The notes under the pieces were generated by a model. The model did no database searches. It was not told the origin of the DNA and saw only the letters and a program-made list of their open reading frames with translations. This document shows positions 2,700 to 59,226 of a stretch of 64,000 nucleotides of DNA, in pieces. Source of the stretch: Gautieria morchelliformis (taxonomy: Eukaryota; Basidiomycota; Agaricomycetes; Gomphales; Gomphaceae); assembly GCA_015179125.1 (NCBI GenBank), contig WHVA01000057.1, positions 186,001-250,000 on the forward strand, written 5' to 3'. A program made the position numbers and the translations under genes. Every line of letters starts with the position of its first letter. Position 1 is the first letter of the stretch.

Positions 2700-2766
2700 T
2701 GTTGCGCGCAGAACTGAGTTCGAAGGGAGAATTGATTAGATTACTGTCTACTCGGTGAATACCTAG

Positions 2767-2987: not shown

Positions 2988-3061
2988 TGGTGGCAACGGT
3001 GAGATCATAAATCACCAGAAGCTGCACAGCTCGAAACCCCCAAGTTCCCGATCACTCGTGG

Positions 3062-3923: not shown

Positions 3924-5066
3924 ATGACCTCTAAAGTAAGCATCTTCAAAGGTAACCCGGGACAAGACGGAGACGAATGGCTACAGACGTTCGAAAAAGC
4001 GTGTTATGAGAGAGGGATAGACGCAGACGAAACAGAGAAGCTCAAATACCTGAAACTATGCCTGTCAGGTGAAGCAATGCGACAGTTCAGGTCATGGGAG
4101 CCTACGTGTAGATCGTCATGGTCCGCGTTCACAACGAAATGGGGAGAGGTATACCCAAGCCGCGAAATACTCCCAACCATAGCAGAGACATTCAACGACT
4201 GGCAAAAAGCGCGCATCTTGGAGAACGAGCTGCTAACAAAGACAGTAGACGAGGAGCAGAGACCAGTCTGGGCCCTGGTAAAGTTCACACACACGTTGAG
4301 CGAACTAGGGGCTAGACTCACAGGCATGGACTCCGTCACCAAATCCCACTATGTCTTCCAAAACTTGCCACTATGTGTTCAAGAGGCGCTACCGTTCGAT
4401 CACGCGAACATGCTCAGTTTCGAGGCTTTACTCCTCGCACTAAGGAACCTCGATCACCAAAGACTTGCAATGAGAGCATCAGTGGACTTCCAGGTCAGTA
4501 ACTTCGGACACCAGCTAGCCAACACCACAGCCAGGATGGAAGCGTTGGAAAGAGATAGAAGAAACACGACGACCTTGAGCCGACAGCCAACACTGAACAC
4601 TGCCCCGGGTAACCCAACCCCACGCCAACCAACCATCCCAAACGGAAGCACGACAAAACCCGCAGATCTCGTGTTTGAAGATTCCACCGAGGGCAAGAGG
4701 AGGTACGACGCAGCAGTCAAAGTGTTCTTCACTACGCACGGCCCGAATGCAACGCCCTCCCTAGACAGACCATTCCCACTGTCCCCAGGTTCTCCAAGTC
4801 CCGGCAGTCAAGAGTGCTGGACATGCGGTATCCAAGGACATCGAAAAGGAGACCCAGCTTGCGACCCCCACAGGAGCCTACCCAGACACGAACAGATCTA
4901 CCGAGAAGTCGTCGGAAAGGCAGCATCACGAGCCATGGCGAGAGCCAATAGACAGGGACAACAACGTATGTTGTTATACCTACAAACCGGAGACGCGTCA
5001 CAACTCGACACCACCGACGATGGGCTTGAAGACGAGTCGGAAAATGGTGGAGGAGAATGCGTTTGA
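3924..5066 (+). other. gag region of the gypsy fossil
   Basis: The 380-residue frame starts MTSKVSIFKGNPG and holds a retrotransposon-gag helical domain in its first half. A zinc-knuckle motif (CWTCGIQGHRKGDPAC) follows near residue 300. It overlaps the start of pol by 10 bases in another frame, as in many gypsy elements. Confidence 0.85.
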
Positions 5067-8000
5067 AGAGCCGCATTTCTCCTATAGCACAACATTCTTC
5101 ATCATTCATCTCAACAGTCTCCCGAGGAGAATCGACGTCGTCGGGAGACGAGCACACAACCCAGTCAAAAACAAGTCGACCTCCCACCCATCTGAACTTT
5201 TTTGGCACCGGTGTCTACAGCAGCACACGTCTCAGTCGGAACAATCGCACCCCTTTTCCTTTTCAATCCGTACCCGACAACCTGTCGAACAATCTAGACG
5301 TACGCAATATAAAACATTCTTGGTACGCGGGTGATGAAAGAACCCTCTTAGACATGAGAACGTCGCAAGAGGCGTTGAGAAGAGTGCCATCGAATGGCCG
5401 ACTTGTCACGGGTACAGAGGAGAGAGAAGTTGTCCAATTATTCCAACCAAGAGAGAAAGAAGACATCTTTTCCAACCCATTCCTAACGAAGGTAGACATC
5501 ACAGGAAGCAACGCTGGCACCATCAGAGTGGAAGGAACAGTCGACGATGGTGGACTGTTGTGCGCCCTTGATTCAGTCCTATGGCGACAATGGCACGCCA
5601 TCCTCGGAGCCTTGGAACCATCACCATTGGCCTGCGTAATGGGAAACGGAACAGTCACGAAGTCATTAGGCCGGACAAACCTGTTCATCAATGTGCACGG
5701 AATCGCCACAAGAATACAAGTAGAGGTGCTGGACTCGGGAGGTTCCTTCGAACTCCTACTCGGGAAAACATGGCTAGGAAGATGCTCAGCGGTCCACGAT
5801 TATGCAACGGATGAGCTGAGAGTAAAAGCAGCCAGTCAAGAGGTGATAATACCAAACTTCTTCGATCACTTGAGGTTCAAAAAACCCACCCTGAACACCC
5901 TGGGGAAGACAGAAGAAACAGTATCAGTCCAAATAGTCGACCACAACCAAGCAGACCCTGTCGAGAAAACCGAAAGCATCAGAGACCCAGCGGACAGCCT
6001 ACCTAGCCTAGCAGACACAGCGAAGCTAGTGAATCAACTGCGCCCATCGGAAACGACGATCGACAAGTTTGACCCCGACCGCATAAAGACAATCCATGCA
6101 AGCGTGACGCTAGGCGACACGCTTGACTCGGTACAAAAACAACGAGTGATGGACCTCCTTGCATCATACGCAGACATATTCGCGATGCAATTGAGTGAAG
6201 TAAAACCAATCGACTTCATTGAACACCGCATCGACATACCGGAAGAGGTCAAACTACCGAAAACTGACACGTCCCGTCCCCTCACGGTATCTCAAAGAGA
6301 GTGGCTACATCAGCACATTCACAAGCTAGTAGAAGCTGGGATCATTATGAGGATCCCCTACAACGACGTCCGATGCATCAGCCCAATCGTTCTAGCTCCC
6401 AAGCCCAAACACGACCAAGCCAGGTCACTGGAGGAGCTCAGAATCTTAGCGAACGCGGCCTGCAAAGACGCAGGAGTAGACTTACCACACCCCGAAGCAC
6501 CATCGGACAGACAACTTGTCAAACCGTTACCACCCCCAGCACCCACCCAATGGCATCTATGCAACAACTTTGGTGCCCTGAACAAACACACTAAAGCCCC
6601 ACCCTTTCCAGTTGGTGACCTAACAAGAAGGCAACACCAGATGAGCTGCTTCAAACTGTACAACGTACTTGATCTCGCCATGGGTTACCATGCATGTCTA
6701 GTTAGACAAGAAGACTGGGGACTTACGGCATTCAAAGTGGAGGACCTAGGATTTTATACGTACATTCGGATGCCGTTCGGGCTCACAGGAGCGCCAAACA
6801 CATTCCTCAAGATGATGGTTCGAGCATTCGAGGGGATGATTGGGAAGGACTTGGAACACTACATGGACGACATCTGCCAAGGGTCGAACACCTTCGAAGA
6901 TCTGTTCGAAAAGTTAGGCAGAGTCTTCCAAAGATGCAGAGAGAAGAATGTAGTCCTTGCCCCATCAAAACTGTCACTGTTCTGCCCCCGGGTCCTTTGG
7001 GCGGGAGTAGAACTCTCCGCCGACGGGATTCGCCCAGACTTATCGAAGGTTACAGCGATCCTGGAGTGGCCCACACCAGTAACAGCACACGAGACGCTAG
7101 CTTTCCTCAGCACCGTCAGCCATTTCCGTGCCTGCATGCCAGCCTTCGCAATTGTCGCCGACCCCCTATATGAAATGATCAGAGGGATTCAAGTGGCGAA
7201 ATCGGAGACAACGAAGAAACAGAAGAAAGGAACGTACAAGAGAGCACTGATAAACACGTCACTCGTCGGCAAATGGACGGCCACACAGGACCAAGCTTTC
7301 GCACAACTCAAAGGGCTACTGACACAAGCACCAGTACTATCCACGATCATCGTAGGCAAACCACTAATAGTAGGGACAGATGCCAGTGCGAGAGGATTAG
7401 CGGCGTACCTAGCACAATACCAGCCTAGGAGCGACCCAGACGGCCCCACAAAAGAAGTCCTACACCCCATCGCTTTTGCCTCTCGCAGGAATTCACTGGC
7501 AGAACGCAAGCAACACTCATTCGAGCTCGAACTGAAAGCGGTGAAATGGGCGTTGGATAAATTCCACAAGTCCGTCTGGGGCCATCAGATCATACTGAAG
7601 ACAGACGAGCCACGGAATACTTCATAAAGGACGACAAGCTCTGGAGGTTGAAAACAGGCATAGCACACCCTGTAGAAGTACTCTCAAGGGTCGAAGGTCG
7701 AGCGAAACACTCGAAGTACACAAGAACATAGGACACTGGGCAAGGGACATTCTCACACTCGAATTACGCACCCACTACGATTGGCCCCAACTGAGAAGAG
7801 ACTGCACAGACGCCCCAGCAGAGTGCCCCAATTGTCAACAGTTCGGCCCTCGCCTACGGAACTTTCTACTTCAACCGATCATCAGACTACGCCCTTTCGA
7901 CATGCTCGCAGCCGATTACCTGAAGCTCCCCAAAGGGATCGGAGGCTTCTCAGAGGCACTCATCTTTGTAGATTTCTTCACGCGCTACGTCTGGGGGATC

Positions 8001-9031
8001 ATCCTGAAGAAAACAGGAAACAACCTAACCTCGGCAACCTCGCTAAGAACGATATGTCACGAATGGCAACCTCCCAAACGCATCCTGACGGACGGAGGAT
8101 CCCATTTCAAAGGACAGCACATGACGGCAGTTTTACAGGAGTTCGGCATCGAGCACGAAGTCACCCCGGCGTATACACCACACTGTAACGGCCTCATCGA
8201 GAACGAGAATAAACAACTGCTGTGGATCTTAGGAAAAGAGTGCGCTTCAGATCAACCAGACCGGACGGAAGGCATCACCGCAAATTGGCCAAAAAAGTGG
8301 CCGAGAGCAGTCTCCTTGCTTAACGAAAGAAAACACCGGTCTTAAACACCTCACCCAAATCCATTATGTTCGGCACCATCGATGGATCCTTCGACATCGA
8401 CGATGTCATGGATCTAGACTTCGATAAAGGAGCAAGACTCGCGTTCTTGGAGGCCGACCGCGAAGTGACCAGAGACCACCTGCAATCGATCCAAGCGAGG
8501 AGAAAGGAGTGGTTTGACAAAAAAGCCAAACCCACGACGTTCGAAACGGGAGACCTCGTTCTAGTACATAACTCGAAACTAGACACATCAAGGGAGGCCA
8601 AGTACAAACTCTCAGCGCCCTGGCTTGGACCGTTCAGAATCACAGGCAGAAGCAACAATTCATATTACTTGGAGTGCTTATCTGGAAAAAAAGCAACAGG
8701 AAAAGTACATGCAAACCGCCTCAAGAAGTTCCGCCTCCAAACACATGAACCAACCCTAGATTCGAATGCCACAGTAACAGAACGACACGAAGAAACCCTG
8801 TTACGGACGCTGAACGAACTACCAGAAGTCGCCGAAGACGATCTCCCTGTTGACGTCACGCCCCTAGAGACACCAGAAGGAGCTCCCGAAGAACCACCAC
8901 CAGAGGAACCTACAGGAGACGACCTGGACAAAGCAGAAAACCCATACCAGCCGATAGGTCAGAGGCTCCACAGACGAGCAGCTGCAGCAGCGAACCCGTA
9001 TATCCACCCCAGAACCGAGTATCAGAAGTGA
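5057..9031 (+). other. pol region of the gypsy fossil (protease, RT, RNase H, integrase)
   Basis: An aspartic-protease-like stretch with VLDSGGSFELLLG is near 5730. Reverse transcriptase has the active-site box HYMDDICQG near 6860, and RNase H has VGTDASARGLAAY near 7375. Integrase follows from about 7740, with a C-terminal part ending VHANRLKKF near 8730. The region is interrupted in a few places and cannot be read as one protein, so it is treated as a fossil. Confidence 0.85.
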
Positions 9032-9098
9032 TCGTCCCAATCCAAGGTTCCCTTTCTCTTTGTTCTTGTCGCTCGCAACAACGTTGTCTCACTATTCT

Positions 9099-9172
9099 TG
9101 AGGGGGAGTGTAGACGCTGAGACACCTCTCCGCATCTAGCACCAGAGCGCCTACCATTAGAGGATAACCAGT
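9099..9172 (+). repeat. polypurine tract and truncated 3' LTR of the gypsy element
   Basis: A purine run (GAGGGGGAG) precedes TGTAGACGCTGAGAC, which matches the first 64-66 bases of the 5' LTR. After position 9172 the sequence no longer matches the LTR, so about 155 bases are missing. Confidence 0.85.
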
Positions 9173-40666: not shown

Positions 40667-43600
40667 TCAAGGAGCTCTAAGTAATACATCTTTATATACA
40701 ATGTTGGTTGTGTCCAAACCCTCCTCAAGCAAGACCTTCACTCTGTTCCAATTGGTCCCTCTTGATACACCAACATACAACTGACCATGTCCAAACACTG
40801 GATATCTCAGGTCCAGCCCAACCGTACCCAAAGACTGTCCTTGAGACTTGTTGATAGTCATTGCAAATGCCAAACGCACTGGAAACTGCCTCCTTTGCAG
40901 CACAAATGGCAACTCTCCCTCTGATGGCTTAATGATGATCCTGGGGATGAAAGCAATATTGCCTGCACATGGACCTGAGATGATCCTGACCTCCAACACT
41001 CTAATGTTTATCCTCACCAACCGCAACCTTGTCCCATTGCATAGTCCTTGCTTCTGATCCAAATTGCGCAACAGCATCAGAGGCACTCCAGGCTTGACTT
41101 CCAAGCGAGCAGGAGGAAGACAGCCCATCTCTATGGAATTCAGATACTCCACAGGATACCGATCTGCATCATCGGATTCTTCAATGGAATTTGCGCAGTG
41201 CAAGACCTGAGCATCACCTGGAAACTCCCTAAACACCATGGAATTGATCTCATTGACCTCAGTGTTTCTGGCACAGAGGATGGCACGCTCCAAAAAGTAA
41301 TTGTCCTGGGCAGGGACATGATTGCCAATGCCAGGGTATATTTCCTGGATCAGATCTTCAATTCCAGGGCCACAAACCATGTGAGGAGGCAGTGAGAACG
41401 TATGATCCAGTGGGAGATCCTTTCCCTGGCCCACATTCTGCAGCCATTCTGCAAATCTGGCTCTGTCAGGGTCATTTCTCACCCGCATGTTCTCTGTCAG
41501 ATGGAGGACCTTGATCTTTGGCCACAGATATGACTTCTGAAGGGTAGCTCCCACGATATCCTCCTTGGAGCCTTTAGGGCCAATTGGCAGAGTCTGCTGA
41601 AAGTCACCTCCAAAGGCGACTGTGATGCCACCAAAGGGTCTATCAGGCTGGTCAAGGAAATCCCTCAGTGTCCTGTCAATGGCCTCTATGGCATGGCGAT
41701 GCTGCATTGCAGCCTCATCCCAGATGAGGAGACTGGCCTGTCTCAGCATGTCAGCCTTGTCAGAGTTCTTTTTGATGGAGGAGAAAGAGCGCTCATGGAC
41801 AGGAATGGGAATTCCAAGCATGCTATGAGAGGTTGTACCCTTAGTGAGGATAAGGGCAGCCATTGCAGATGAGGCTACTGCAATCACAATGAGGCTCTCC
41901 GCTCTACAGGAGTGGATTAGAGTGTTCCATGTGAATGATTTCCCGGCGCCACCTGAGCCAGTGACAAAAAACATTTGTCCATCAGGTTTCCCATGAGCAT
42001 CTCTGGTCAGTGCCGACCGTAATATCTGATCATGCGCAGACCTTTGCCCCTCATTCAGCCTGGGAACCTCCTCATCAGCTATGTCCCTCTCTGCAACAGG
42101 GTCATAGTCCCTCTGCTCAGCTATGAACCTGTTTCCAATGAGGGCCTCCCACTCGCCTGCCACCCAAGGCATATCATCAAAGGTGCTCAAGGACATTCCA
42201 CCCTGCTGGAGGATTTTTTCCAAGAGAAAGAGGCCAAAATCATAAACCTGATCGTCCTGTGGATCCTGCATACCATGTCTGATTTGGAGCCGATGTCTGA
42301 GATCATCACATATGTGCTCCCTGAAGCCATCCCATAGTCTGCCGGGGCCTGATGGATTGCAATGGCCAAGGATGGTGGCAAAGAGATGTCTGAGCTGAGC
42401 ACCTGTTTTCATGCCACTGGCTTCCTGGAGACACAACCTCAACTCCTGATCATCATCCAGAAGTCCCCTTGCACGACAGGCCTCCTTGTAAGTAGCATAT
42501 TGTATGCCATCCACCGACCTAAGCTCCTCAAAGGATCTAGCCCCCTTGACCACTGTGAGGAGAGTGCGCACAAAAAATCTCTCTCCTGATCTAGGGTTTG
42601 CAAAGTGAAGGCGACCGATGCTATAACCTCCTTGGCGTGGTGTCCATACCTTTTCCTGTGAGTGCCAGGTAAAATGCTCAGGAAACTCCACATAGAGCAG
42701 ATCACGTGCTTCAGGGTAGATATCATTGGCCTCAAAGTAAGCCATGAGCGGTGTCTTTTTCGCCTCAGCCCTTTCCAGGATGTTGTCCACATCCTGGTTG
42801 GGATCAAAGATGATTGTGTGATGGTCCTTTTCATGGACTGGCAGTGCCATGACTGCAGGCACCTGGGTGTGGATTTCCCGCTCCAGCAACCTCCAACAGG
42901 CCTCATGAGCACTGACATAGCGAGCGTCCAGGTACTGCTTAATTTCATCCTGGGTGCGACCAAACTCCATGGTGGTCCGATCATGGCCCTTGTAGAGATA
43001 CTTGTGGATATACTTGATACACCTCACATTGATGGTGAGTTCAGGGTTGATGTGACACCAGAATTTGAGCAAGAGCAGGGCAGAGTATGGCACAACCCAT
43101 CTGTTGTCCAGCATGTCACCTCTGACATTGTGCAGCCTTCCATCATTGCGACGACGATATTTTGGATATCCATCCTCATTCAGACTGGTTTCCTCACAGA
43201 ATGGCTTTGGGAAGTTTTTCTTGCACTTGCCATTTTCCATGCAGGGTGCGTTTGGTTTCATTTGTCCACAGGGACCATGTGTCATCAGCTCACAGACCAA
43301 CCGGTAGAGGACAGGATGAGTCTCTGGATCAGGGAACTCTGCCAAAATCATTGAATCCACCTCATGTGCATGTCTGATCTTGGAATCTCTTTCAAACCAG
43401 ATAAGAATATGCATGTGTGGGAGTCCCCTTTTCTGGAATTCAATGGTGTGGACGCGAGCGACGGTTTCCCCAAAAATCTTTTCCTTGACGATCAAGTCAA
43501 TGAGGTATTTCTTTTTGAGCTGGAACACCCGCGACACCAGGTCAGGCCTGTCCTGAGGAGTTTGTCCGGGCAACAATGCATCCAATACCTCCTGCCAGTT

Positions 43601-45661
43601 GGGATTGGCAGTCATGGTAATAAAGAGATCTGCCACACCATACTTCCTTGAAATGGCCAGAGAGTTCTGCAGGTTTTGCTGCATGTCCCGTGTCCCCCCC
43701 TGAAATGTGGCAGGCAGAATGGATCTTATGCCCAAGTTGTTTGGATCTCTGTCATTGTCATTGCGATGAAAGGCATCCATCATCTGGTTATACATCTCAG
43801 CACGGAGAGTGTGTTGATTTGTCCTGATCCACCACAGCCTGCTTTGCTCTGCAGCGGCCCAAGAGTCTACAATGTACTGCTGGAATAATTTGCCAGCGTG
43901 CAGGAGTGTTGTAGGTTCTTCTGTTCTCTGGAAGAGACGATAGGAATGGAACTGAATTTGGGTGACATGCCCACTTCGCTCACGCCCGTCTGGTAATTGG
44001 CGATAGCGAATACCAGGTTGCCACCCCAACTCTCCCCTGGGAAAGAGCAAGACATAGTGAAGAGAGGCATAGTTTGGATTCATATCGGATACCCTTTGAA
44101 AGCGTCCACCTTTGAGCTGGACAATAACATCCCTAGGTTCAGGGTTGATGCCATCTCCAGGAAGAACCACCGCAATCTCATCCGCAGTAGGGATATTATA
44201 CCTCCTAGGATCCCTGTGTTCCCTGTATGTGAGCCTAGCCCGGATCTCACCATTCTGTCCCTGAGCTCTGAGCCTCTCAGCCGCTTGTCTATATATGGGA
44301 ACATGAGGATTGCATAAGAGGAGCATTTCCTGCAAGTCTCCCATGATAGTTGGAGACAGACCTGGGTTACGCGTGTTCCTCTGTTCCAAAGCCAATGCTG
44401 GATCATATATATAAAGTTGGGCATACTGTATCCGCCTCCCAGGGTTAGGGATGAGAGAGCCATGAATATGATACAGTTCGCCCTGCAGCTTGAGGACATA
44501 TGGACCACGACCCTCCCGAAGCAAATCTAGGTCAAAGTCGGCTCCCAAGGAAGTGAATGCAAATGCAGCATTGTACTGCCTGATGTTCTGGCGAAACTGT
44601 TTGGCCTCAGGGTCCTGGCCCTCTAAGAGCCGTCTCAATGGCTGAGGGAGCACTGGCAGCTCTGGAAGCTGCACCTTTCCTTGTATACAGCAATCACCAA
44701 ACCTGGGCCGCACATTTGAGGATTTCTGCAGGCGTTCTGCCATCCAGTGCAATGCTTTACAGTCAGGGCAGGAAATAACCATGGGACCCAAATCATGACG
44801 CTGCACATCTGCCTCGATTATTCTAGAGCGACCAAGTGGAATAGGAGGAGGAGGTTGCTGAGGACGCTGCCGAGGTGCAGGGAGTGGCTGAGGAGGCTGA
44901 GGAGGTGCAGGGAGTGGCAGAAGATGCTGAGGAGGTGCAGGGAGTGGCAGAAGACGCTGTGGAGGTTCAGGGAGTGGCTGAGGTGGCTGAGGAGGTGCAG
45001 GGAGTTGCTGAGGAGGCTGAGGAGGTGCAGGGAGTCGCTGAAGAGGCTGCAGAAGCGCAGGGAGTAGCCGAGGCATTGGTCTTATTGCATTGGCCTGAGC
45101 CGGCAATGCTGCCACTCCTGCAGAACCTACTACAGAAGGATTAGCTGCCTGTCTACCTCTTCCCAATTGCTGCAATATAGCAGACTGCTCAGCAGCCTGA
45201 GCACGCAACTGTGCAATTCCTGCAGAACCAACCACAGGAAGATTGGGAGGTGGCCGTATAGGCTCCTGCCTGTATCTTCTCACAGGCTGTGCTGCTGGGA
45301 TTGCTGCTAACTGAGCACGCAGGGCTGCCACCTGCTGTCCAGGACTGGGATCCGGAGGACGTGACGGCCCTGCAGGCATAGGAGGACGTGGTGGCCCTGC
45401 AAGGATAGGAGGACGTGATGGCCCAGCCACAGGTTGTTGAAAAGGATCAGCGACATTGCTTCTAGGAGGAGGGCGAGGGATGGCAAAAGGCTGTGGTGGA
45501 GGGGGAGGCTGGTCCTGAGCTCTGACAGCAGCAGCAGCAAGTGCACGCGCTCTCCGATCAGTGGGCGACGTCATATGACCCTCTTGCTCCTCCCTTGCCC
45601 TTTCACGCTCCTGCTGACGATTTCTCTCTGGAGTAGAAGGATCCCTGAGAAATGTAGGCAT
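40667..45661 (-). CDS. Helitron Rep-helicase transposase
   Basis: One uninterrupted frame of 1,664 residues drives rolling-circle transposition. Residues 1-300 are proline-rich and partly made of tandem PPQPPQPLPAP units. A Cys/His finger (CPDCKALHWMAERLQ) follows near residue 305. The Helitron-like N domain and HUH Rep nuclease have the metal site LPHMHILIW and the two-tyrosine motif YIHKYLYKGHD. The C-terminal half is a PIF1-type helicase with Walker A GSGGAGKS, Walker B WDEAAM, FGGDFQQTLPI and NKSQGQSLGTVGLDLR. All key residues are present and there is no intron, so it could be active. No RPA or endonuclease extra domain was seen. Confidence 0.95.
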   Translation of the reverse strand: MPTFLRDPSTPERNRQQERERAREEQEGHMTSPTDRRARALAAAAVRAQDQPPPPPQPFAIPRPPPRSNVADPFQQPVAGPSRPPILAGPPRPPMPAGPSRPPDPSPGQQVAALRAQLAAIPAAQPVRRYRQEPIRPPPNLPVVGSAGIAQLRAQAAEQSAILQQLGRGRQAANPSVVGSAGVAALPAQANAIRPMPRLLPALLQPLQRLPAPPQPPQQLPAPPQPPQPLPEPPQRLLPLPAPPQHLLPLPAPPQPPQPLPAPRQRPQQPPPPIPLGRSRIIEADVQRHDLGPMVISCPDCKALHWMAERLQKSSNVRPRFGDCCIQGKVQLPELPVLPQPLRRLLEGQDPEAKQFRQNIRQYNAAFAFTSLGADFDLDLLREGRGPYVLKLQGELYHIHGSLIPNPGRRIQYAQLYIYDPALALEQRNTRNPGLSPTIMGDLQEMLLLCNPHVPIYRQAAERLRAQGQNGEIRARLTYREHRDPRRYNIPTADEIAVVLPGDGINPEPRDVIVQLKGGRFQRVSDMNPNYASLHYVLLFPRGELGWQPGIRYRQLPDGRERSGHVTQIQFHSYRLFQRTEEPTTLLHAGKLFQQYIVDSWAAAEQSRLWWIRTNQHTLRAEMYNQMMDAFHRNDNDRDPNNLGIRSILPATFQGGTRDMQQNLQNSLAISRKYGVADLFITMTANPNWQEVLDALLPGQTPQDRPDLVSRVFQLKKKYLIDLIVKEKIFGETVARVHTIEFQKRGLPHMHILIWFERDSKIRHAHEVDSMILAEFPDPETHPVLYRLVCELMTHGPCGQMKPNAPCMENGKCKKNFPKPFCEETSLNEDGYPKYRRRNDGRLHNVRGDMLDNRWVVPYSALLLLKFWCHINPELTINVRCIKYIHKYLYKGHDRTTMEFGRTQDEIKQYLDARYVSAHEACWRLLEREIHTQVPAVMALPVHEKDHHTIIFDPNQDVDNILERAEAKKTPLMAYFEANDIYPEARDLLYVEFPEHFTWHSQEKVWTPRQGGYSIGRLHFANPRSGERFFVRTLLTVVKGARSFEELRSVDGIQYATYKEACRARGLLDDDQELRLCLQEASGMKTGAQLRHLFATILGHCNPSGPGRLWDGFREHICDDLRHRLQIRHGMQDPQDDQVYDFGLFLLEKILQQGGMSLSTFDDMPWVAGEWEALIGNRFIAEQRDYDPVAERDIADEEVPRLNEGQRSAHDQILRSALTRDAHGKPDGQMFFVTGSGGAGKSFTWNTLIHSCRAESLIVIAVASSAMAALILTKGTTSHSMLGIPIPVHERSFSSIKKNSDKADMLRQASLLIWDEAAMQHRHAIEAIDRTLRDFLDQPDRPFGGITVAFGGDFQQTLPIGPKGSKEDIVGATLQKSYLWPKIKVLHLTENMRVRNDPDRARFAEWLQNVGQGKDLPLDHTFSLPPHMVCGPGIEDLIQEIYPGIGNHVPAQDNYFLERAILCARNTEVNEINSMVFREFPGDAQVLHCANSIEESDDADRYPVEYLNSIEMGCLPPARLEVKPGVPLMLLRNLDQKQGLCNGTRLRLVRINIRVLEVRIISGPCAGNIAFIPRIIIKPSEGELPFVLQRRQFPVRLAFAMTINKSQGQSLGTVGLDLRYPVFGHGQLYVGVSRGTNWNRVKVLLEEGLDTTNIVYKDVLLRAP
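44845..45070. repeat. about 30-base minisatellite coding the proline-rich repeats of the Helitron protein
   Basis: Units of the type GAGGTGCAGGGAGTGGCTGAG recur about seven times, coding LPAPPQ-type units. Copy number probably varies between copies. Confidence 0.75.
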
Positions 45662-46667: not shown

Positions 46668-46843
46668 TGTTAGACGCAGTAGATAGATAGTTAGGATTAC
46701 CAAGCGATGTCTCGGAAATTCCTATATACATGATTTTGAGTCGGAGAAAAGAAAATAGTAAGCTACCTTGAGTCATCGTGGTACACTATGGTTACATGAC
46801 TAAACTATGCATCATCGATACACTTGAGCGACGGTTATCTTAG
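46668..46843 (-). repeat. 3' LTR of the copia element
   Basis: It starts TGTTAGACGCAG and matches 59046-59226 almost throughout. It is flanked on the left by GTAGC. Confidence 0.9.
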
Positions 46844-47087
46844 CGAAAGGAAAAAGAGAAATATGGTTTAAGCCATACCCATTTTGTAGAGAAGATAATT
46901 GTGTTGCGGTAAAGGCAAAGCCTTTGTAAGAATGTCCGCGAGGTTTTCTTCAGACTCGACATACCTAATTCCTAATTCCTTGAATGCGACTAATTCTCGG
47001 ATCCAATGACACTCGACGCGTAAGTGTTTGGTGCGGAAATGATAAATAGCGTCATGGATACCAGAGATCGTTTGAAGATTGTCGCAG
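46844..47087 (-). other. end of RNase H of the copia fossil
   Basis: Minus-strand HFRTKHLRVECHWIRE and SEENLADILTKALP are the standard copia RNase H tail next to the 3' LTR. Confidence 0.85.
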
Positions 47088-47112
47088 TACGGTGCGTGAG
47101 CACCGTCACCTC
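47088..47112 (+). repeat. left terminal inverted repeat
   Basis: Matches the reverse complement of 52097-52121 at 23 of 25 positions. Confidence 0.9.
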
Positions 47113-47414
47113 TAGATTGCACATCGGAGATTTTAGAATACAGAATTTATATACCTACAATCCACGTCTTGACCCTGTGCCCATGGGCGCTATAGTTACC
47201 GTTGTTATTGCTTCCGCCCATTATGACTACTAACCAGTATAATCGGAACCCTACAGGGAGGAACCAATACACGGAGCGTCGTGCGTGCACCATCCCCATA
47301 CAACTATAATTGTACTAGTCTAAGTGAAAATCTACTGAAGCCGAGCCAAACGACGAGGTAATAAGCAATCACCTAATCGAATATCACCATCGCGGCATCA
47401 CAAGTGGAAAACAA

Positions 47415-48786
47415 ATGAGCGAGTTACAGCACCAGGTGAAAATAAGGTAAATAAACACTTTCTTCCTTTGAATAGCAACTCAGGACAATCAGTGGAACGA
47501 CTGTAGATCGTCGGCGTGCAGTATTAGGACTCACTGCTTCCGGTGCAACAACTCGTGCTCTCCCAGAGACTGTAAAGCGGCAACTTGTTTTAGATCAAAT
47601 GGCAAAGGATCCTACGCGGCGACGTGGGCCCAAACTTATCGTGGAGGCCATTGCTAGGGAGACTGGGAACCATTTAACTCAGTAAGTCAAATAGGTAGCT
47701 GTTTCGGTCTTGACTTACATTGACCGTTCAAGGGAGTATGTTAAGGATGAGATGCGGATCCAAGATCCACTAGGGTTTGAGCTTCGTGAACCTACCGCTA
47801 AGAAAATATCCCGGCAAGCGTTAGTTGTCCTTGGACCACATCATGAGTGGAGCGGGGACGGTCATGACAAACTATCAAAGATCGGGTTTCCGGTTTGGGC
47901 CCTTCGAGACGTGTGGTCAGGTAAATGGTTGGGAATCTGGGTGGTTCCCAATAATCGGTTGAAGCATGCCATCGCATATCTATATTTATCGTTGGTTGAA
48001 AGCCTCGGTGGTTCGTGACTTGTGAGACAGCGTAAACTTTGATATATTGCTTATTGGATATTAGGTATGCCAATTCAAACCACCACAGACTGTGGCAGCG
48101 AAACTATCACAGTTTTCGGCCTTGCACATGCAATGCGGTAGGTATTTATGACATGTTTTGTTGTGACCAACATATAAGTCTACTGATTGTTTAGGGAACA
48201 TTTTTCACCGCAACTCTCTACTGATGAACTACTGGCACACAAGTTCCTTAAGTCTGTTCATAATACGACAATTGAACGGGGCTGGCTTCAACTTCGGTTA
48301 CAGTGGGGTGACAACGTAAAAATATTTTGGGAAGCTGGTGATGGTATATACAATCCCTCAAATCCAAACCACTAGTTCGTCATCAATTATTCTATCTCTT
48401 AATTGGTGTACTAATAGGTTTCAAGTGAACTTGTCCAATGGCTGTGGCCTACAATGATTCAAAAGGAATTAGATGAGCTTCGAGATCGGTTCAACAATCA
48501 TGTTGTGCAAAAGGTCAATGGGAAAGTTTTACCATCAGGTGTTTCCCCTAACATTGCATATGCATTACCTGACCAATACGGCGGTGAGAATCATCTTCAG
48601 TCCGTTGACAAACTAGCGGCACAAGGGTTGATGGAAGCTATCGGTGGTAAGGAACTTATTCAGTTTGTGAGCGAAGAGTATGCTTCATGTGCAGCTGAGG
48701 TTTTTCATTCACTGGGTGTTGAGAGACTCACAATGCAAAATGTATGGGTTATCTTCAAGGATATGTTGCTGCTGATGCATCCCTAA
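47415..48786 (+). CDS. DDE (integrase-core type) transposase
   Basis: The exons code for a protein of a type widespread in mushrooms and usually annotated as integrase core. The N-terminus (TTVDRRRAVLGL, ALPETVKRQLVLDQM, RRRGPKLIVEAI) looks DNA-binding. The catalytic triad is plausible: D in HEWSGDGHDKL, D in TTDCGSET and E in NTTIERGWLQLR. FPVWALRDVWSGKWLGIWVV lies between. Introns are seen near 47436-47475, 47682-47731, 48015-48063, 48139-48194 and 48373-48420. The end QNVWVIFKDMLLLMHP is followed by TAA. Start at 47415 (MSELQHQ) is a best guess. The gene has no obvious break. Confidence 0.8.
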
Positions 48787-48908
48787 TTCAAAAAAGAATT
48801 ATTTTTTGCCATTCAGAATGAAGACAGAATGAAGATTTAAATCTTCAACAATGGGTGATTAAAGGAACCATAGTAAACTAGCGATGAAGAAACTATGCCA
48901 TCGTAATT

Positions 48909-51328
48909 TTAAAGCTCCCACTGTCGGTGAAGATTCCGAGGCTTTATAGTCGGTAACACCTCCATTTGAGGGACAGCTATATCATTAAATGGTGCCGGTA
49001 CAACGACAACCTCTGTATTGAGGCCCAACTTGCAACAGATTTTGTTGCATTTATGTTCCTTGAGAAACTGCAGAATTCCTGACTGGCCTTTGTCCCAGAA
49101 GCCCGATGAACTATCAAATCTAGTATAACAAATCAATAGTTTGCTGCAATGGAGAATAGCAACCTACGTGTGTGCTTGCGGGTCAAAAGGAACGACCCAG
49201 TTCTCTGAGTAAACAAAGCCTAACGATATGTTAAACATCATTCTGTGTTTATACCACGTGCACTTACCTTGAATGTCTACAAATACATACTCTCCCATGC
49301 TGTCAACAACCGTATGATGGGCAAATGTGTCGATCCAGATCCCAAGATAATCACTATTTTCGCCGGTGTCTCCATTACCTGAAAATTTACGTTCGGTGGT
49401 CCCAGGTTCAAGTAACGGTACAGCCAGAAATACGTTCCATATTAGACTCTGGTTTGAGTGTTGCTCCGCAGGGAGATCAGGCAGTTTATCAACCAGCGTA
49501 CCCAGGAATGCACCATCAGCATTCCACTTCATCTCTTCAGATAGACATCAAGTACTGCTACAAGTAAAACAGATACATGTACCTGGAATATTTTTGGCAC
49601 CATACTGCTGTGCACGTCATATGAATGAGTAAAGGAAAAACTTTCCCCATGCTAATAGCTTGAGTTCACATTTGAGGTCGTACTTATTCAGATATTCGGT
49701 ATTGCCGTTCAAATTTTTCGACTGAAGTACAGCAAAACTGTCGCTCGCAACACGCCCCTGTGTGACAGTTAAAATAGAATAGGACATTGGTAGAGTGCTC
49801 ACCATAAATGCAAATTTCGCATAGCCATATCCAAGGTATCCTTCTTCTCTCTTACCTGTATTGACGTATTTTCGCCAGTTCTTGGGAATCAAAATTGTTT
49901 TAATATCTATGCTGTCTTCCTTTTCCGTGACCTCCCCTTCCACATTGACAAGATAGGTTTCACAATAAAATGGGTACGCGTCGTATTCAATCTTGGGTGC
50001 ACTAGCATTCCCAAGACCTGTACCTGATCGGCGCTGATATGCACTCACGTAGCGTTTTGCTGATGGGAGGGGTTCCTCTACTAGAATTAGTATAATACTA
50101 TGTCTAAACTAAGAACATTTACCGTGTGATATAGATGAAAGCTTGTGTTTGGATGAACAAGCCACTGAGCGCATGTGGAATGGTGGTATAGGCCTTGAGT
50201 CACATTCAATATCTTCATTGGTCTTCAAAGTTTCAGCATCACTAGCCAAGAAAATATACATAAATATCACCTACAGTATCAGATTTTACTTCATAGAGAC
50301 GCAGCTGCATCATGATACATTTACCTTTGATGTCCTTGTCCGATAGCAAGCTGTCCTTCTCCAGCTTTTCATGCAGGGCTTGAACGGTGCAAAAAAGGTT
50401 AGGCTCGTCAATATCTAAGTAACTGCTCTCATGAACAGTCTTCGCAACCACAAAAACCACTTTGTCTCTAGAAATGTACACACGGCGATTCAGTATTAGA
50501 TAACACATGAATCGGTAGACAAATTTACCTCAAAAAGAACGGTTTTGGTGTGGGTTTATCAGCAATCGCAGCCTTATCATACACATTTTCAGCATGTTCG
50601 AGAAGCTGATCTATCATTTCAGTGGCAAGTGTCGTGGCAGTGAAACCTTCGACTACTGCTGGTATTTGAATCTTACCGTGATTGTGAGCAACTTACACAA
50701 AAATTCAGCACAAAATAACCTACTTGACGAGGCTTACAACCTCCCTTCGACCTTACAGCCGGATAATACCAAATCGTTAGCTTAATGCCAATGGAGTCCA
50801 TCTTGCTAAGCTTCCTCAAGGCTTGAGTTTTCTTCAGGATCTCACTACCTTTCTTGAGGCTTGGGTTCTGTGATCGTCTATTTAGATGATGGTCAGATGC
50901 AGAGCCCTCGTGCTCGGCAGTTCGCTTGAGAATATGGTTCATCACATCATCGCAGCCTATGCAATATTGTGAGAAGAGGTTTAACAGTGATAGAGAATGA
51001 CTCACCGCTGAAAAGTTGTGGCTCTATGGCGCAGTCAGTTGCAGATACAGCCAGTAATATGCTGGACTTACCCTTTTCGGCATCTTCATTGCATTTAACG
51101 CATAAATTGGATTTCAGGAACGGATAAACCACCCTGCACCCGAGGCACTGAGGAAGAACCTGTATGGATATGAGTAAAAGTAAAGATGATTCCAACATGA
51201 TTACATACTTCAATTGCTTTGCATTCGGTTTCAGACGTTGCGGCCAGCAGTTTGTCACACTTCGCACATTGAAGTAGAATCGAGTCGAGGCGAGGGAACC
51301 TATTGGAACAACCTTGACAGTGAGTCAT
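48909..51328 (-). CDS. alpha-type protein kinase with N-terminal zinc-ribbon motifs, transposon cargo
   Basis: Alpha-kinases (MHCK/EF2K family) phosphorylate Ser/Thr in helices and are expanded in mushrooms. The start MTHCQGCSNRFPRL leads to four CxxC pairs (CQGC, CAKC, CLGC, CVKC). A linker with SLKKGSEILKKTQALRKLSK and PKPFFLR follows. The kinase domain begins around 50050, with the glycine-rich GYLGYGYAKFAF and FAVLQSKNLNG. Signature motifs near the end are SMGEYVFVDIQGKC (catalytic Asp in the D-x-Q-G motif), DPQAHT and KGQSGILQFLKEHKCNKICC (zinc-binding His/Cys). About nine short introns split it. I see no certain disruption, but not every junction was verified. It converges on the transposase gene. 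Confidence 0.82.
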
Positions 51329-52026
51329 TGCAGAACAACGAAAAGAACAACACACTCGTACCAGTTTTATACCACGTAGCATAACTGCGATCTGCCCAAG
51401 AGATGAGAGAAAATTCTAAGTGAGCCAATGCTCAGCACAATACATGCATTAGTGAGACTCACCGTCAATATATATACAGTTAAAACTTCATCGTTACCGC
51501 TAATAGTGTATTAAAACTTTGTTGTTGCCACTAACAGTGTATAACGGCTGAAACAACCAGTGCACTTCAGCTCAAACAAATTTATGTGAAAGAAAGAAAG
51601 ATTACCGGGCCCATCGGGTTAAGCAGGAGGCTAGTCTAGACACAGAGTCTCCGTTGTATCAAATACAACACCGCTCCATTCCCTAAAATTTTACGACCAT
51701 ACTTGTATTCGCCGTTTCCCCCGTGATACGAGTTAACGTCAGCTCAAGTTCACTGTGATGGATCGCTCACACCGTACTTACAAAGAATTGGCCAAGTTCA
51801 ACACATCGGCGTTTGACTACCGGCCATCGTCAATAGCGGGATGTCTTCCAGTCTTTCAGCTTGCTGTAACAGTTAGGCGTTAGTTTTAATGAAACCATGA
51901 GAGTCATGGACATGGAGTCGAAGACAGTCTGAAGCAGAGCTTACGGTCGATGACAGTCAGGAGTAGACTCGCCGTTTCCTTCGGACTTTGTGTCACGTGA
52001 TGTACTGAGTTAGGTTCTTTGGGCGC

Positions 52027-52965
52027 TTAAATACATGTGGATCGCGAAACATGAATATTGGATCTTGACAATTGAAATCCTGCCCCTTGAATTTCAGAGG
52101 TGACGACGCTCACGCACCGTACGCAGTGTATATGCGCGGGGTAGTCACAGGGGAAACCGAGCTCTTGGAGTAAATGATTTACCCACAAGACGTGTTTGGC
52201 TCTGGGGACAAGAGCCATAGACTCGGATTCGGTTGTAGATAGAGCGATCCGTGTTTGCTTTTTCGATAGCCATGCAATGACGCCACTGGCATAAAGACAA
52301 ATATAGCCGCCAATTGATTTGGAATCGGCAAGATTTGCAAAGTCGGCGTCAGTATAGACTTCGAGTTGCGGGGAAAGCGCGGAACCGCGGAGGGTGATTC
52401 CTAGATCTCGGGTACCTTTAAGGTACCGAATGACACATTTAACAGCCATCCAATGTGCAACAGTATAGTCGTGAGTGTGTTGACTAAGTTGTTGTACGGC
52501 GAATGCAATATGGGGTCGTGAACCAAGAGCGGCATACATAAGAGATTCCACAGCTTGCGCGTAAGGAACATCGAGTGCCTGTTCCTGTTTGGGACGCGGC
52601 ACTAATGATTTGATGTCCTTCGCGACTGGGGTAGTTACCGGCGGTGCCTTGACCAAATTGAATCGATGCAAAATGATGTCAATATAATGGCCTTGAGATA
52701 ATTTAATGGTACCGGCGTTACGGTCAATTTCCACTCTGATTCCAAGAATTCTTTACATTTCGCCGAGATCTTTCATAGGGAAGTGAGTGTTCAATAGGTT
52801 TTTGATACGCACCATTACTTCCTCTGTACTCGTGAGGAGGCCTAGGTCGTCGACATAGACAGTGACAATAGTAATATTATCATTGTCTTTTTTGAAGAAG
52901 ATACAGTCGTCGGCATGACTGCGCGTAAACCCATCGTCAAATAGTATTTTGGACAGTCGTTCGTA
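52027..52965 (-). other. second RT part and RNase H of the copia fossil
   Basis: The RT active-site box VYVDDLGLL is near 52850. RNase H follows with EVYTDADFANLADSKS and STTESESMALV. It is bounded on both sides by the inserted DNA transposons. Confidence 0.85.
52097..52121 (-). repeat. right terminal inverted repeat
   Basis: Matches the reverse complement of 47088-47112 at 23 of 25 positions; CGCAG follows. Confidence 0.9.
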
Positions 52966-53280
52966 CTATGCCCGAGTAGGAAATGGATCGGTGCAGGATA
53001 TGGATAAAGTGTCTTAAAATATATACCTCAGCCATTTTAGGTCAGTTTTGTAGCTAGAGTTACAAGTTATACATAGTAGTTTATCCAGGCAAATTAATGA
53101 GTAACAGGAAGGAGAAGTATTCAATTACACTATACTCCTATAATATGGATTTCCTCCCATGCCGGCAAATCAAGGAGCTCTGGTTCTTGGTTTCTTCCGT
53201 CACGATCTCTTAGACAGCTTTGGCGTGACAACACACTTTTGATCTCCGATTGAATCCAAACCTTCGACATTTCGCTCCAC

Positions 53281-55745
53281 ATGTCAGTCGCGGAATGCCT
53301 GAAGTCGCCTGTTAAACAGGTGACTTTGGAGAAGGAGGAGCGCATCCAAAAAGCCCTGGGGATGGTGAGGTCAGGTATCCAGGTCTCTTTGCATGGCGCT
53401 GCTCAAAAATGCAACATTGCGTACTCGACCCTGCGAAATCGACTGCATGGATCGAAGCCTCACAAGCTGGCACACACTGAACAGCAGCACCTCAGTCCGG
53501 AGCAACAAAACATCCTGATGGCGTGGTGCAAGTATCAAGCTAATATGGCGATGCCACTCTCTCGTGCAGGGCTCCGGGAGAAGGTAAATGATATGGTAGG
53601 CCGAATCCCCAGTGACAGTTGGATACAGCAGTTCCTCAAAGCCCACGCGAAGGATATCGAAGCAGCCAGGTCCTGTGGTCTCGATCCAAAGCGTGCCCAG
53701 GCTTTCAACCCGTCGACCGTAGCCGCACACTTCGCACTCCTTGGGAAAGTCCTTGATGTATACAAGATCCCTGTGGGGAACATCTACAATTTCGACGAAA
53801 AGGGAATCCAGCTAGGTGGAGGTCGGAAGGGGCTCCAGCAACAATTTATATTTTCAAAAGGTGATCGGGATCGCTACGCACAAAAATCCGACTCGCTCGT
53901 TCTGGTCACCATAATGGAGGCCGTTAGTGCCGATGGTAATGCAGTTCCACCTGGGTTTGTCTTGCCAAAAGGTGAGACTGGTGAATGGTGGAGCGTTCCT
54001 GGCGTTGGATGGTAAGTTCGCCTGTATTCTATCTATACACTATTAATTTTTTTGTATCCAGTGTTGCAACATCAGATGCAGGCTGGACAGATGATGTCCT
54101 GAGTCTTATGTGGTTCGAAAAGGTCTTCATTCCTCATGCTGTCAAGCACAACCCAAGCGGCTCCCCAATCCTTCTCATATCCGATGGCCATTCCTCTCAC
54201 GAGACGCCAGCACTGAAATCACTCGCCTACGACCATAACGTCCTTCTCTATTCATTACCTCCACACACCACTCATAAACTGCAGCCCCTTGACGTTGGTG
54301 TGTTCGGACCACTGCAAACCGGATGGGCCAAACACTGCCAACAACGTGCCGCCACGCGCAATACTGTCACATGTGCTAATGTTGTGTTCGAGTATATGCT
54401 TGTGCGTGAGAAGTATCTTACACCACGCCCTATCGAGTCAGCTTTCCGTCGTTGTGGGATCTGGCCGTTCAACCCAAATATATTTACCGACGCTGACTTC
54501 GGACCAAGTCAGGCATCCTCAATTCAAATTGGTGCACCTATGGGCCACCCTGAAGCTATGCCATCGTCACCATTCAGTGCAGCCCTGACTGATCCCGATG
54601 ACATGGACTGGGAGTCATCATCAGTATTGGAGTTCGTAGATATCGAAGGAACGGCTGGGCTTAGCGATCTTGCAGAACCATCAGGTCACTCCCCAGTCCG
54701 CCAACCACCGATTGACTTATCGGATGGCTCCCTGGCTCCCGAATTCCCTCTTCCTATATGTCACACACATGTGTCACAGCCCCTTCATGAACCCTTGATC
54801 GCTGTCACACCACCAACGATTAGGGGTATGGACAGCCATGAAACCTCGGTCAGTCAGGCTCCTACACATAGATACAGCACTCGGAGCCGTGTCGGCCGGC
54901 TCACCCACAGCCCATTCCTCACTATATCTCGCTCTGGATCCAATTCCTCACTCACCTCCTCTTCGAATGGCAGCCTCTCTTCACGTGCTCTCCAGAATGA
55001 GAACGAGGCTCTTCGACGCAAGGTTAATGACCTTACAACAATGTATCAGAACGTGTGCAAAGCCCTCGACACCGAGCGAGTGCATTGTGAAATGGTTCAA
55101 GCCCAGCATTATGCGGCTGAAGCACACTGCACATTGCGTGCTATGGAAGCACGGGACTTGCGTCAGCAGCTCCATGACAAGTCAAAAAGTGGCAAGTGGC
55201 GCACATTGAATATGCAGGCATGGCTGCTTACTGCACCTGAGGCTAAAGCACAATTTGAGGACCAGGAACGTACTCGGCTTGGGAAGCTTGCCGCCGATAC
55301 CAGTAAATGCGAACAAAAGGAACTCGAGGAGCGGACTCGTGACCTCCAGTGGGCACATAACGCCGTCCTCAAAGTCTTCGACACTTTGGGGTCATATAAA
55401 CGCAAAGATGAGTTACTTGATATTGCTGCCGCCCTTGCCCTTGATCAAAAGGGTACCATCGCCGAACTCACTGCTCGCATCAAAGCCCACCTTCAGGGCC
55501 ACCCTCATTTAGCGGAGAACCCCAGGTTTGCTGGTCTTTACCAGACGACTCGTTGGGGGCGCAAGCGGACCATTCAAGACATGAATACGGAGGCAACACC
55601 AGTTGCTGCTGGTCCTTCAAATGATTCACAGCTGATGCAGCCTCTATTGCTACCTCAAGCCGCCACTCCTTCATATCTGCCCAGTCCTTCTAATCCTGAT
55701 ACATCAGTACACATCCATGCTTTAATTGACCCATCATTACTTTAG
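53281..55745 (+). CDS. pogo-family transposase (CENP-B HTH, DDE_1)
   Basis: Exons 53281-54011 and 54062-55745 join across a 50-base GT-AG intron at a Cys codon, giving 804 residues. Order: a psq-type helix-turn-helix (GAAQKCNIAYSTLRNRL), a CENP-B-like domain (LSRAGLREKVNDMVGRI) and the DDE_1 core. Acidic residues are in YNFDEKGIQLG, LLISDGHSSHE and LQPLDVGVFGPLQ. A Ser-rich linker, a coiled coil (NENEALRRKVNDLTTMYQNV) and a SAP-like C-terminal motif (KDELLDIAAALALDQKGTIA) follow. It looks intact. Confidence 0.93.
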
Positions 55746-55786
55746 CATCTAGTTAATTGATCAATGGAGCAACTTGTGTTTCTTGG

Positions 55787-55804
55787 GAAAAAAAAAAAAA
55801 AAAA
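55787..55804 (+). repeat. A run after the pogo transposase
   Basis: About 17 A residues, 40 bases after the stop codon; simple sequence near the end of the element. Confidence 0.6.
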
Positions 55805-56084
55805 CAGACCCCCGCCGCCTCGGCAGACCTCTTGAATATTAGGGTTTAGTGTGACAATTTACAAACAATTGTGACGATTCTTGGCCGGCATGCTGGTTCA
55901 AAGCCTCACTCGCAGCTTCTATCCTGCTGGCTCAATCACTTCGCTCAATTTATTTCTGAAAACTATAGAGCTGTATTGACTACTATCTTCTCCTTGATAA
56001 ACCTTCTGCCGGATTCACAGAAGTGGCAGCAAAGACCAGTATCAAGCTTTTATTGACTTTGGTCCATATCTCGCTGGGGCATAG

Positions 56085-58982
56085 TACCAGGCATGGCACG
56101 ATGCAATTTCAGGACTCGTCCCGATCCGTCGTCAAACCCCTCCGGTTGGCGCATATATATTTCTTCTTCCAATCTAGAGTTAAGGTACGCGCCCTTAACA
56201 TCCATCATCTCGATCCGCCACCCGTTGTGGATGCCGAGGGCAAGCAAGACGCGCAGGCTCTCAATTTTAACGACCGGGGAGGTGACCTCAAAATAGTCCA
56301 TTCCCGGATGCTGAGTAAATCCTTGGGCAACGATTCTTGCTTTGCCCAATTCAAAATTGCCTTTTGCGTCTGTTTTGACCGCAAAAACCCAATGGCTACC
56401 CACAACATTCTTCCCTGGTGGCAACTCTATCAGATCCCACGTACCAACTTCCGCATGCTGTTTCATTTCTATCTCCATCGCCCGTTGCCAAATTGGGTAA
56501 TCATCCCGATTCAGCACTTCAGTGTATGACAGTGGTTCAGTGACTATTTCAGTCGCTGATAAAGCACGATCGCCCTCGTCCATGTGGCAGTAATCTGGCG
56601 CGGGCTTAGCGGCGATTCTAGTGCTGCGACGGGGTTCCGGCGCATCGGCTGGCACCAGTGAGATGGTGGGAGCCACAGGTACAGTGGTTGTGGCGCTCTT
56701 CACTGAAGGTGTTAAAATTGGAACGGGTGTTTCATTGTCATCGTCGACTTCCGGTGGAGGGTGGAGATCCTCATTTTCATCAAATATCACGTTCCTTGAG
56801 GTCTGAATGCGATTGGAACGCGTGTTGAGGTATTTCCACGCTTTGGAATTGGCAGCACCACCAGTAAAGATATGCTGCTCCGACTTTGGTTCCAGCTTAG
56901 TACATCTCTGATCCAGTACCTTGACCCAACACCTCTTTCCAAATTCTTCTAACCTCCTGATATCAGGCTTCCTTCCAAAAAAGACCTGATAAGGGGTTAT
57001 CTCTGCCTCAAGTGCCTTCGTCGGCGATCTATTTTGATGTAGCACGCATACGCCACTGCCTCCGCCCACAACATCTTCGGCAATTTCTTGGCAAAAAGCA
57101 TGGCGCAGGCGAGCTCAAGTAAGGTACGATTGAGTCGCTCCGCGATGCCATTTTGTGCTGGAGAATAAGGTGCCGTATATTCCATGATGATGCCATTCTC
57201 AGCGCAAAATGCTTTGAACGCCGAGCTAGTATATTCACCTCCGCCATCACTATGTAGCCTTTTCAATTGAAGCCCTGTCTGGGTTTCAACAAAGGCTTTG
57301 TAATCCTTGAAGCGGTCTAGGACATTGTCCTTGGTGTGACTAAAATAGAGCATTGAATAACGACTCTTGGCATCAATGAAGGAATAAAAATAGCGTTCTC
57401 GGGCTGGACCTTCTGTACTTGCCAGTCCCCACACGTCAGATACAGTAAGATCACCAATGTATACAGCGGTGTCTTCTGCACGTTTGGGGAATGGCTCAAT
57501 GTGTTGTTTACCTTCAATACAAGGTACACACTGAGTTATCGGCGGTTTCGTGTCCACAGTCATTCCAGTGACTAAATCGCGAGATTTCATTAGTTTAATG
57601 GCACCCAAATTGATATGTCTCAACACTCGGTGCCAATTGTCCCAGGACTTTGGTCTGGCGAGGGCCGTGAAATCTGTGTCACCCATGGAATGGATGCGCA
57701 TACACATACAATATATGTGTCCAGTTTTATTGCCCTCGGCAAACACTGTACCCGATGGGGATTTGATCTTCACGATGTCATTTGTGAAGAGAGCCACATG
57801 TCCTTGATCTGTAAGCCATCTGATGCTCAAAATATTATTAGGAGCATCAGGCGCATGCTTGACGTCAGTGAGCTTGGCAGCAAAAGTGCGATCACCGATG
57901 AAGAAATCAATTGGAATTGTGCCTCGTCCTTGGGTACGCAAAATAGTCCCTGGCATGATGCCCTCGATCTCCGACGGCTCCGGAGTGAAATTAGTAAAGT
58001 AGTCTCGATTACGTGCAATATGAGTGGTTGACCCTGTATCAGCCAACCAGTCCAATGCCAATATATTGGCACAGCACGTGAGATCCTCAACTATCGCCGG
58101 GTGTTCGACTGCCGCAAAGACAAACTTGGAATCATTGTTGTTTTCATTGTTCTCCGTAGCTTGTTTTGTCGAATTCTTGGGCTGTTTTTCCTTCCACCAC
58201 TTGGGGGATTGCCCTTCTTTTCCACCACCTTTAGCCCAACAATCCTTCTTCCAATGCCCTTTCTTTCCGCAATTCATGCACTTTCCTTTTGTAGCCCCAT
58301 CATTCTTTCGTCCCTTTTTACCCTTTTCTTGTGCTTTCAAGGCTGTCTCCGCTCCAGGGGCAGATCTTTTAATACAATCCTCTTCCAAGACACAAGAAAT
58401 CAATGTGTCGGAAGATAATGTCGGTAAACCGGCAGTGGTGGCCGTAATAAAAGTGGACCATGAGGGTGGAAGTGACGTAAATAATACATTACAAAAGTCT
58501 CAGTCATTGATCAACTCGCCGAGAGAATGTAACTGTTTTTGTAGGCCCTTTAGTTTACGGATATGCTCTTCCATGTTTGCGCCCTCTTCGGCGAAGGAGT
58601 GGAAGAACTCGCGGCAAACATTGATTACACCTATTGCTCCTTTGGCCTCGAAGATCGTGAGTAAGGCTAGCCATACGCCTCGTGACGTTGAGGCACCATA
58701 TGTATAGACTAGATACTCGTCGCTGATCCAAAGACTAATGGCCACATAGGCTTGTTGGTCCTTTTTAGTCCAATCTGCAATCGCTGCCCTTTCCGGGTCC
58801 GTGATATTCCTCGGATCCGCCGGCGTCGGTTTTGATACCACGCCGTCAACATGGTCCCAAAGATCCTGTTCTATCAAGATCCATCTCATTTTCTCTTTCC
58901 AAGCCGCATAGTTGCTGCCGACGAGCGGCTCAATTCTAAAGAGCGAGCTCGGCTGTGGGACCGCTGATACAGTAGTAGACAT
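56085..58982 (-). other. gag, integrase and first RT part of the copia fossil
   Basis: From MSTTVSAVPQPSSLF at 58982 the frame shows a UBN2-type gag and a zinc knuckle (CMNCGKKGHWKKDC). The protease site is LADTGSTTHI, and integrase has HIDRD-type and DGGGEYTSSAF blocks. Reverse transcriptase begins with GSHWVFAVKTD and DVKGAYLNS. A few interruptions are present. Treated as a fossil. Confidence 0.88.
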
Positions 58983-59031
58983 GTATTGATTGTTGCAGAT
59001 TTTTTGATTGATGTGGACTGGGTTAGAGCGT

Positions 59032-59045
59032 GGGGCCCATAACCC
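59032..59045 (-). other. copia primer-binding site (initiator tRNA-Met half)
   Basis: GGGTTATGGGCCCC on the minus strand, directly beside the LTR, complementary to the initiator tRNA-Met anticodon loop, as in the copia element at the left edge. Confidence 0.75.
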
Positions 59046-59226
59046 TGTTAGACACAGTAGAGAGATAGTTAGGATTACTGAGCGATGTCTCGGAAATTCC
59101 TATATACATGATTTTGAGTCGGAGAAAAGAAAATAGTAAACTACCTTGAGTCATCGTGGTACACTATGGTTACATGACTAAACTATGCATGTGTCATCGA
59201 TACACTTGAGCGACGGTTATCTTACA
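59046..59226 (-). repeat. 5' LTR of the copia element
   Basis: It starts TGTTAGACACAG, ends CTTACA and is followed by GTAGC. The primer-binding site abuts it at 59032-59045. Confidence 0.9.

Follow-up and report, generated by a model that had tools for sequence, protein, structure and literature searches.

A probable IS3EU-type DNA transposon with an alpha-kinase gene, nested in a copia retrotransposon of Gautieria morchelliformis

Complete families of IS3EU, a group of eukaryotic DNA transposons, are described as always having TA..TA ends and usually 6-bp target-site duplications (TSDs) (PMC10045372). The closest described relatives of the element reported here are the TET-carrying IS3EU families of seven rust species, which have 6-bp TSDs, terminal inverted repeats (TIRs) of more than 30 bp and TAYGG..CCRTA ends; one further TET-carrying family is given for Tuber indicum (Kojima 2025, PMC12730594). 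According to the same paper, all TET-carrying families contain oppositely oriented transposase and alpha-kinase genes, with the TET gene lying between the two and proposed to counter methylation-based silencing, while the alpha-kinase itself is named twice in the main text and is given no function in the relevant passages. Another fungal element, Styx of Zymoseptoria, is IS3EU-derived by description, has 6-bp TSDs and probably moves in a non-replicative manner; a Styx copy with a non-functional integrase gene still moved (PMC10853768). IS3EU elements have also been reported from Ganoderma, in a paper whose relevant passages do not refer to an alpha-kinase (PMC8955403). Among the literature matches listed, which were assessed mostly by title and the start of the abstract and with subscription papers largely outside, PMC12730594 is the only one in which an alpha-kinase counts among the genes of the DNA transposon itself. 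An earlier, sequence-only reading of the present locus knew of no eukaryotic DNA transposon with such a gene, a statement that Kojima's IS3EU families overturn: the alpha-kinase cargo itself is not new, as the same gene pair has already been published for them.

The locus lies in a window of 64,000 nucleotides from the basidiomycete G. morchelliformis (assembly GCA_015179125.1, contig WHVA01000057.1, positions 186,001 to 250,000), within which 47088-52121 is a 5,034-bp TIR element nested in a copia retrotransposon (Table 1). Its ends and the flanking repeat are seen directly. Exact matches to the terminal 14-mer occur in the 64-kb window only at the two element ends, and with up to three mismatches there are five matches, counting both ends, where chance alone would give 4.34. 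The empty site can likewise be read directly: when the flanks are fused with a single CGCAG, they form one unbroken frame on the minus strand (...PAHIHCDNLQTISGIHDAIYHFRTKHLRVECHWIRE...), and since this frame is uninterrupted, the element is a real insertion. Symmetric TACGG..CCGTA ends imply a target repeat of 5 bp, and a perfect 6-bp repeat, CGCAGT, requires the loss of one T from the left end; both readings yield an identical empty site. The inverted ends, the flanking CGCAG and the single empty-site frame thus bear out the sequence-only reading in its view of a complete and delimited TIR element, and the joined copia frame, together with neighbouring open reading frames (ORFs) that match copia Pfam domains, agrees with its placement of the insertion within a copia gene. 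Two details had to be amended, namely the length of the inverted ends, which is 26 nt and not 25, and the CGCAG on both sides, which is present as claimed and extends to CGCAGT on the assumption of a T lost from the left end. In the rest of the 64-kb window, no second copy of the element was found by blastn (E 1e-2) or tblastn (E 1).

Table 1. Positions of the transposon, its genes and motifs, and the surrounding retrotransposon within the window.
Feature	Position	Strand	Remarks
Copia retrotransposon	46668-59226	-	LTRs 46668-46842 and 59046-59226, GTAGC outside both
Target-site repeat CGCAG, left copy	47083-47087	.	5 bp with TA..TA ends; CGCAGT (6 bp) with T 47088 included
Left TIR, begins TACGG	47088-47113	+	agrees with the right end at 24 of 26 positions
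DDE transposase gene	47223-48786	+	7 exons, 417 aa, no internal stop in the model
Transposase exons	47223-47280, 47341-47446, 47484-47681, 47733-48010, 48065-48137, 48195-48374, 48426-48786	+	splice model
Alpha-kinase gene	51328-48909	-	modelled with 11 exons; 618 codons, including one TGA, precede the terminal stop
CxxC motifs CQGC, CAKC, CLGC, CVKC	51328-51006 (exons 1-2 and intron)	-	codons 4, 21, 45 and 60
Kinase intron, position uncertain	50324-50213	-	112 nt as modelled
In-frame TGA, kinase exon 8	49617-49619	-	codon 436; kinase splice model
Kinase C-lobe motifs	DIQ 49277-49269, DPQAH 49184-49170, HKCNKIC 49055-49035	-	alignment to myosin heavy chain kinase A
Right TIR, finishes CCGTA	52096-52121	-	24 of 26 positions match the left end
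Target-site repeat CGCAG, right copy	52122-52126	.	followed by T

The ORFs of the surrounding retrotransposon match RVT_2, rve and gag_pre-integrs in Pfam. By eye, the region of the insertion appears to correspond to the RNase H end of the copia polyprotein; in Pfam, the copia piece 52030-52734 returned no family. The two copia LTRs, with the left one taken up to 46842, differ by five substitutions and an indel of 4 bases (95.0% over 180 columns in blastn), and the kinase element is probably younger than the copia insertion. The retrotransposon hosts a second nested element at 52964-56086, whose 25-nt inverted arms match imperfectly (80%), with the CTATGCCC.. ends lying between TA on either side, and which has the domains HTH_psq, HTH_Tnp_Tc5 and DDE_1 in the ORFs 53281-54015 and 53985-55745, that is, a pogo/Tigger-like transposon with its coding sequence divided over two ORFs. 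Elsewhere in the window, an unbroken ORF of 1,664 aa with Helitron_like_N and PIF1 domains (40667-45661) encodes an apparently intact Helitron protein, and a Gypsy-like retrotransposon at 2765-9172, with reverse transcriptase and RNase H in the ORF 5057-7627, is framed by a 100% identical direct repeat of 66 bases (2765-2830 and 9107-9172), possibly short LTRs.

The frame of the transposase is seen to be open throughout our splice model, in which all introns are GT..AG and 37-60 nt long, and appears to be intact. In Pfam, the protein matched the integrase core family rva_4 (PF24764; 2.1e-7, 31.3 bits, cutoff 26). A cruder model had scored 21.4 bits against the same family, indicating that the refined splicing improves the match. 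D163, D222 and E265, assigned by eye, are the likely, putative catalytic residues. A comparison with NCBIfam gave no match at E 10; prenyltransferases were the sole matches in the PDB, at E 0.05-0.06, and were dismissed as chance.

The alpha-kinase gene is convergent with the transposase gene, an arrangement also seen directly, with the two facing each other tail to tail at a distance of 122 bp (48787-48908). Its model is open in 617 of 618 codons across the 11 exons, with the caveat that splice sites were picked partly for openness. The spliced product matched Alpha_kinase in Pfam (PF02816; 8.3e-13, 49.3 bits, cutoff 21.3) over positions 92-185 of the 185 in the profile, compared with E-values of 0.0014 and 0.00037 for two single exons, and this fall in E upon splicing supports the exon joins of the C-lobe. 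The two genes attributed to the element by the sequence-only reading, its own DDE transposase and an alpha-type kinase, could therefore both be modelled and both match Pfam above cutoff. The best PDB match of the kinase was myosin heavy chain kinase A (3lkm; 1.2e-6), and the alignment includes DIQ, DPQxHT and HKCN..C, with equal spacing from DIQ to DPQ in the two proteins. Both the C-terminal HxCxxxC motif (HKCNKIC) and the DxQ...D pair (DIQ..DPQAHT) are thus present in aligned positions, which we take to have the residue roles of the zinc motif and the DxQ...D pair in alpha-kinases. Unlike myosin heavy chain kinase A, however, the kinase described here has CxxC motifs, an N-lobe that Pfam does not recognise, a location inside a transposon and an in-frame stop.

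The span of the C-lobe motifs, 49277-49035, holds two introns of the kinase model. If intron 9 is left unspliced, DIQG is retained and the frame stays open, whereas splicing yields DIQE; the spliced reading is preferred here, since its alignment to the DIQ...D stretch of myosin heavy chain kinase A needs no gap. Of the motifs that had been noticed previously, D-x-Q-G and HKCNKIC, the latter is therefore present, while the G of the former falls on a splice junction and gives way to E in the preferred form. The N-terminal CxxC motifs noticed at the same time were located at codons 4 to 60, and this region is a probable zinc-binding one. In Pfam, the first 296 residues gave one match, below cutoff, to DUF6811 (E 0.16), and a search with the N-lobe piece at E 10 returned no kinase, only DUF3630 and DUF3460 below cutoff. 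In this putative N-lobe, no residue could be assigned as the ATP-binding lysine.

The in-frame TGA in exon 8 is unlikely to be accommodated by another choice of splice sites. With exon 8 and the frame of exon 9 fixed, there are 30 in-frame GT..AG pairs of 35-200 nt, a single one of which is stop-free, and the resulting 198-nt intron drops 49 of the 58 whole codons of exon 8. We judge it unlikely that the TGA lies inside an intron, as this sole option would delete most of the exon. The stop thus suggests that the kinase of this copy is probably defective and inactive. Further upstream, one intron is uncertain in position: its region contains 21 in-frame, stop-free GT..AG pairs, including 50274-50223 (52 nt) and 50270-50213 (58 nt), and given that the other nine introns measure 42-63 nt, the real intron may be a shorter one, for instance 50274-50223. 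A frameshift near this intron was considered and dismissed, since in-frame, stop-free introns are available there.

Comparison with the published families bears on the class of the element. The TACGG..CCGTA ends fit both the TA..TA of IS3EU and the TAYGG..CCRTA of the rust families, with TA..TA alone also fitting GingerRoot, and the alpha-kinase is oriented opposite to the transposase, as in the TET-carrying IS3EU families of rusts and Tuber indicum (PMC12730594). In contrast to these, the 122-bp gap between the genes has no room for a TET/JBP gene and contains none, placing the element outside the TET-carrying subset; moreover, the TIRs fall short of the more than 30 bp of the rust families, and the exact flanking repeat is 5 bp, or 6 bp with one end base lost. 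With Styx, the element has in common a transposase of shared IS3EU origin, by description, and the presence of several genes in one TIR element. Styx differs in its length of 7.9 kb and its four ORFs (transposase, GATA, CCHC and DUF3577), and its 6-bp TSDs compare with a repeat of 5 bp here that is also readable as 6 bp; the word 'kinase' occurs once in the main text on Styx, for a neighbouring duplicated gene (PMC10853768). On these sequence features, the element is most likely a member of IS3EU in a two-gene form, consisting of transposase and alpha-kinase without TET. Scans of the viral collection IMG/VR (four pattern matches for the transposase, one for the kinase) and of the prokaryotic GTDB genomes (22 for the transposase) confirmed none of these matches, and, being directed at close relatives only, they say nothing on rarity.

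An assignment to GingerRoot, Ginger2 or another of the related integrase-like superfamilies instead is improbable. GingerRoot elements mostly have TA..TA ends and 6-bp TSDs, and the published tree does not set them apart from IS3EU, and the 4- or 5-bp TSDs of Ginger2 would fit the 5-bp reading of the repeat (PMC10045372), but TACGG..CCGTA ends and an opposite alpha-kinase both agree with the fungal IS3EU families (PMC12730594). We have good confidence in the explanation that the locus is a cut-and-paste transposon of the IS3EU type, whose kinase would be a long-standing second gene working for the element. The DDE transposase, whose core is of integrase type, would bind to the TACGG..CCGTA termini, cut out the element and reinsert it via a short staggered cut, 6 bp being usual for IS3EU. 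The kinase would have belonged to the fungal IS3EU lineage for long; its most likely phosphorylation targets would be the transposase itself or else a host protein involved in chromatin or silencing, and the CxxC region would provide a docking or nucleic-acid-binding module. As the kinase of this copy is probably inactive, any kinase activity that is needed would have to come from another copy.

The in-frame stop, together with the single copy seen and the existence of ordinary host alpha-kinases such as those matched in the PDB, could also be expected if one transposon had recently captured a host gene by chance, with no role in transposition. The same gene, however, is reported from other fungi for every TET-carrying IS3EU family, with its orientation relative to the transposase unchanged (PMC12730594), and because published families with matching ends carry the same gene pair, a chance capture by this single copy seems unlikely; the similar codon-position GC of the two genes, with no sign of a recent foreign origin, weakly argues against it as well. 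A possibility to which we give more room, while still considering it the less probable course, is that the kinase counters host silencing, in parallel to TET, rather than acting on the transposase. The TET gene that lies between the two genes of related families has a proposed function of this kind (PMC12730594), and other accessory genes of these elements may serve a similar end, but the substrate of the kinase is purely conjectural and the kinase occurs here in an element without TET. Least probable of all is that the kinase is a cargo beneficial to the host and merely spread by the transposon. Rust alpha-kinases are numerous (PMC4469406, PMC5295586), and one appears in a list of 46 genes of wheat stem rust that are under diversifying selection (PMC4150398); an expansion, however, would equally be expected from transposon-borne genes, and the kinase gene described here is decaying inside a retrotransposon.

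To our knowledge, kinases are an unusual gene content for DNA transposons. Among fungi, rusts have a greatly expanded set of alpha-kinases and Microbotryomycetes have none, as stated in PMC4469406 with reference to a 2011 rust genome paper, and a comparison of wheat rusts with eight other basidiomycetes gave an enrichment ratio of 2.34 (q 0.035; PMC5295586); single rust alpha-kinase genes are mentioned in PMC4150398 and PMC4164029. According to the sequence-only reading, the transposon may have partly driven an expansion of alpha-kinases in mushrooms, and the kinase may act in the life cycle of the element; the expansion in rusts fits a transposon-driven origin without being proof of it. Tentatively, and with somewhat less than even confidence, we propose that transposase and alpha-kinase form the ancestral two-gene core of a fungal IS3EU lineage, predating TET, and that the expanded alpha-kinases of rusts and other basidiomycetes would in large part be transposon genes, their product being required for transposition or regulating it; the kinase would then be a working part of the DNA transposon that encodes it. 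The occurrence of the transposase/kinase pair without TET suggests that the kinase, and not TET, is the basic second gene; if so, the alpha-kinase expansions of fungi would be read differently.
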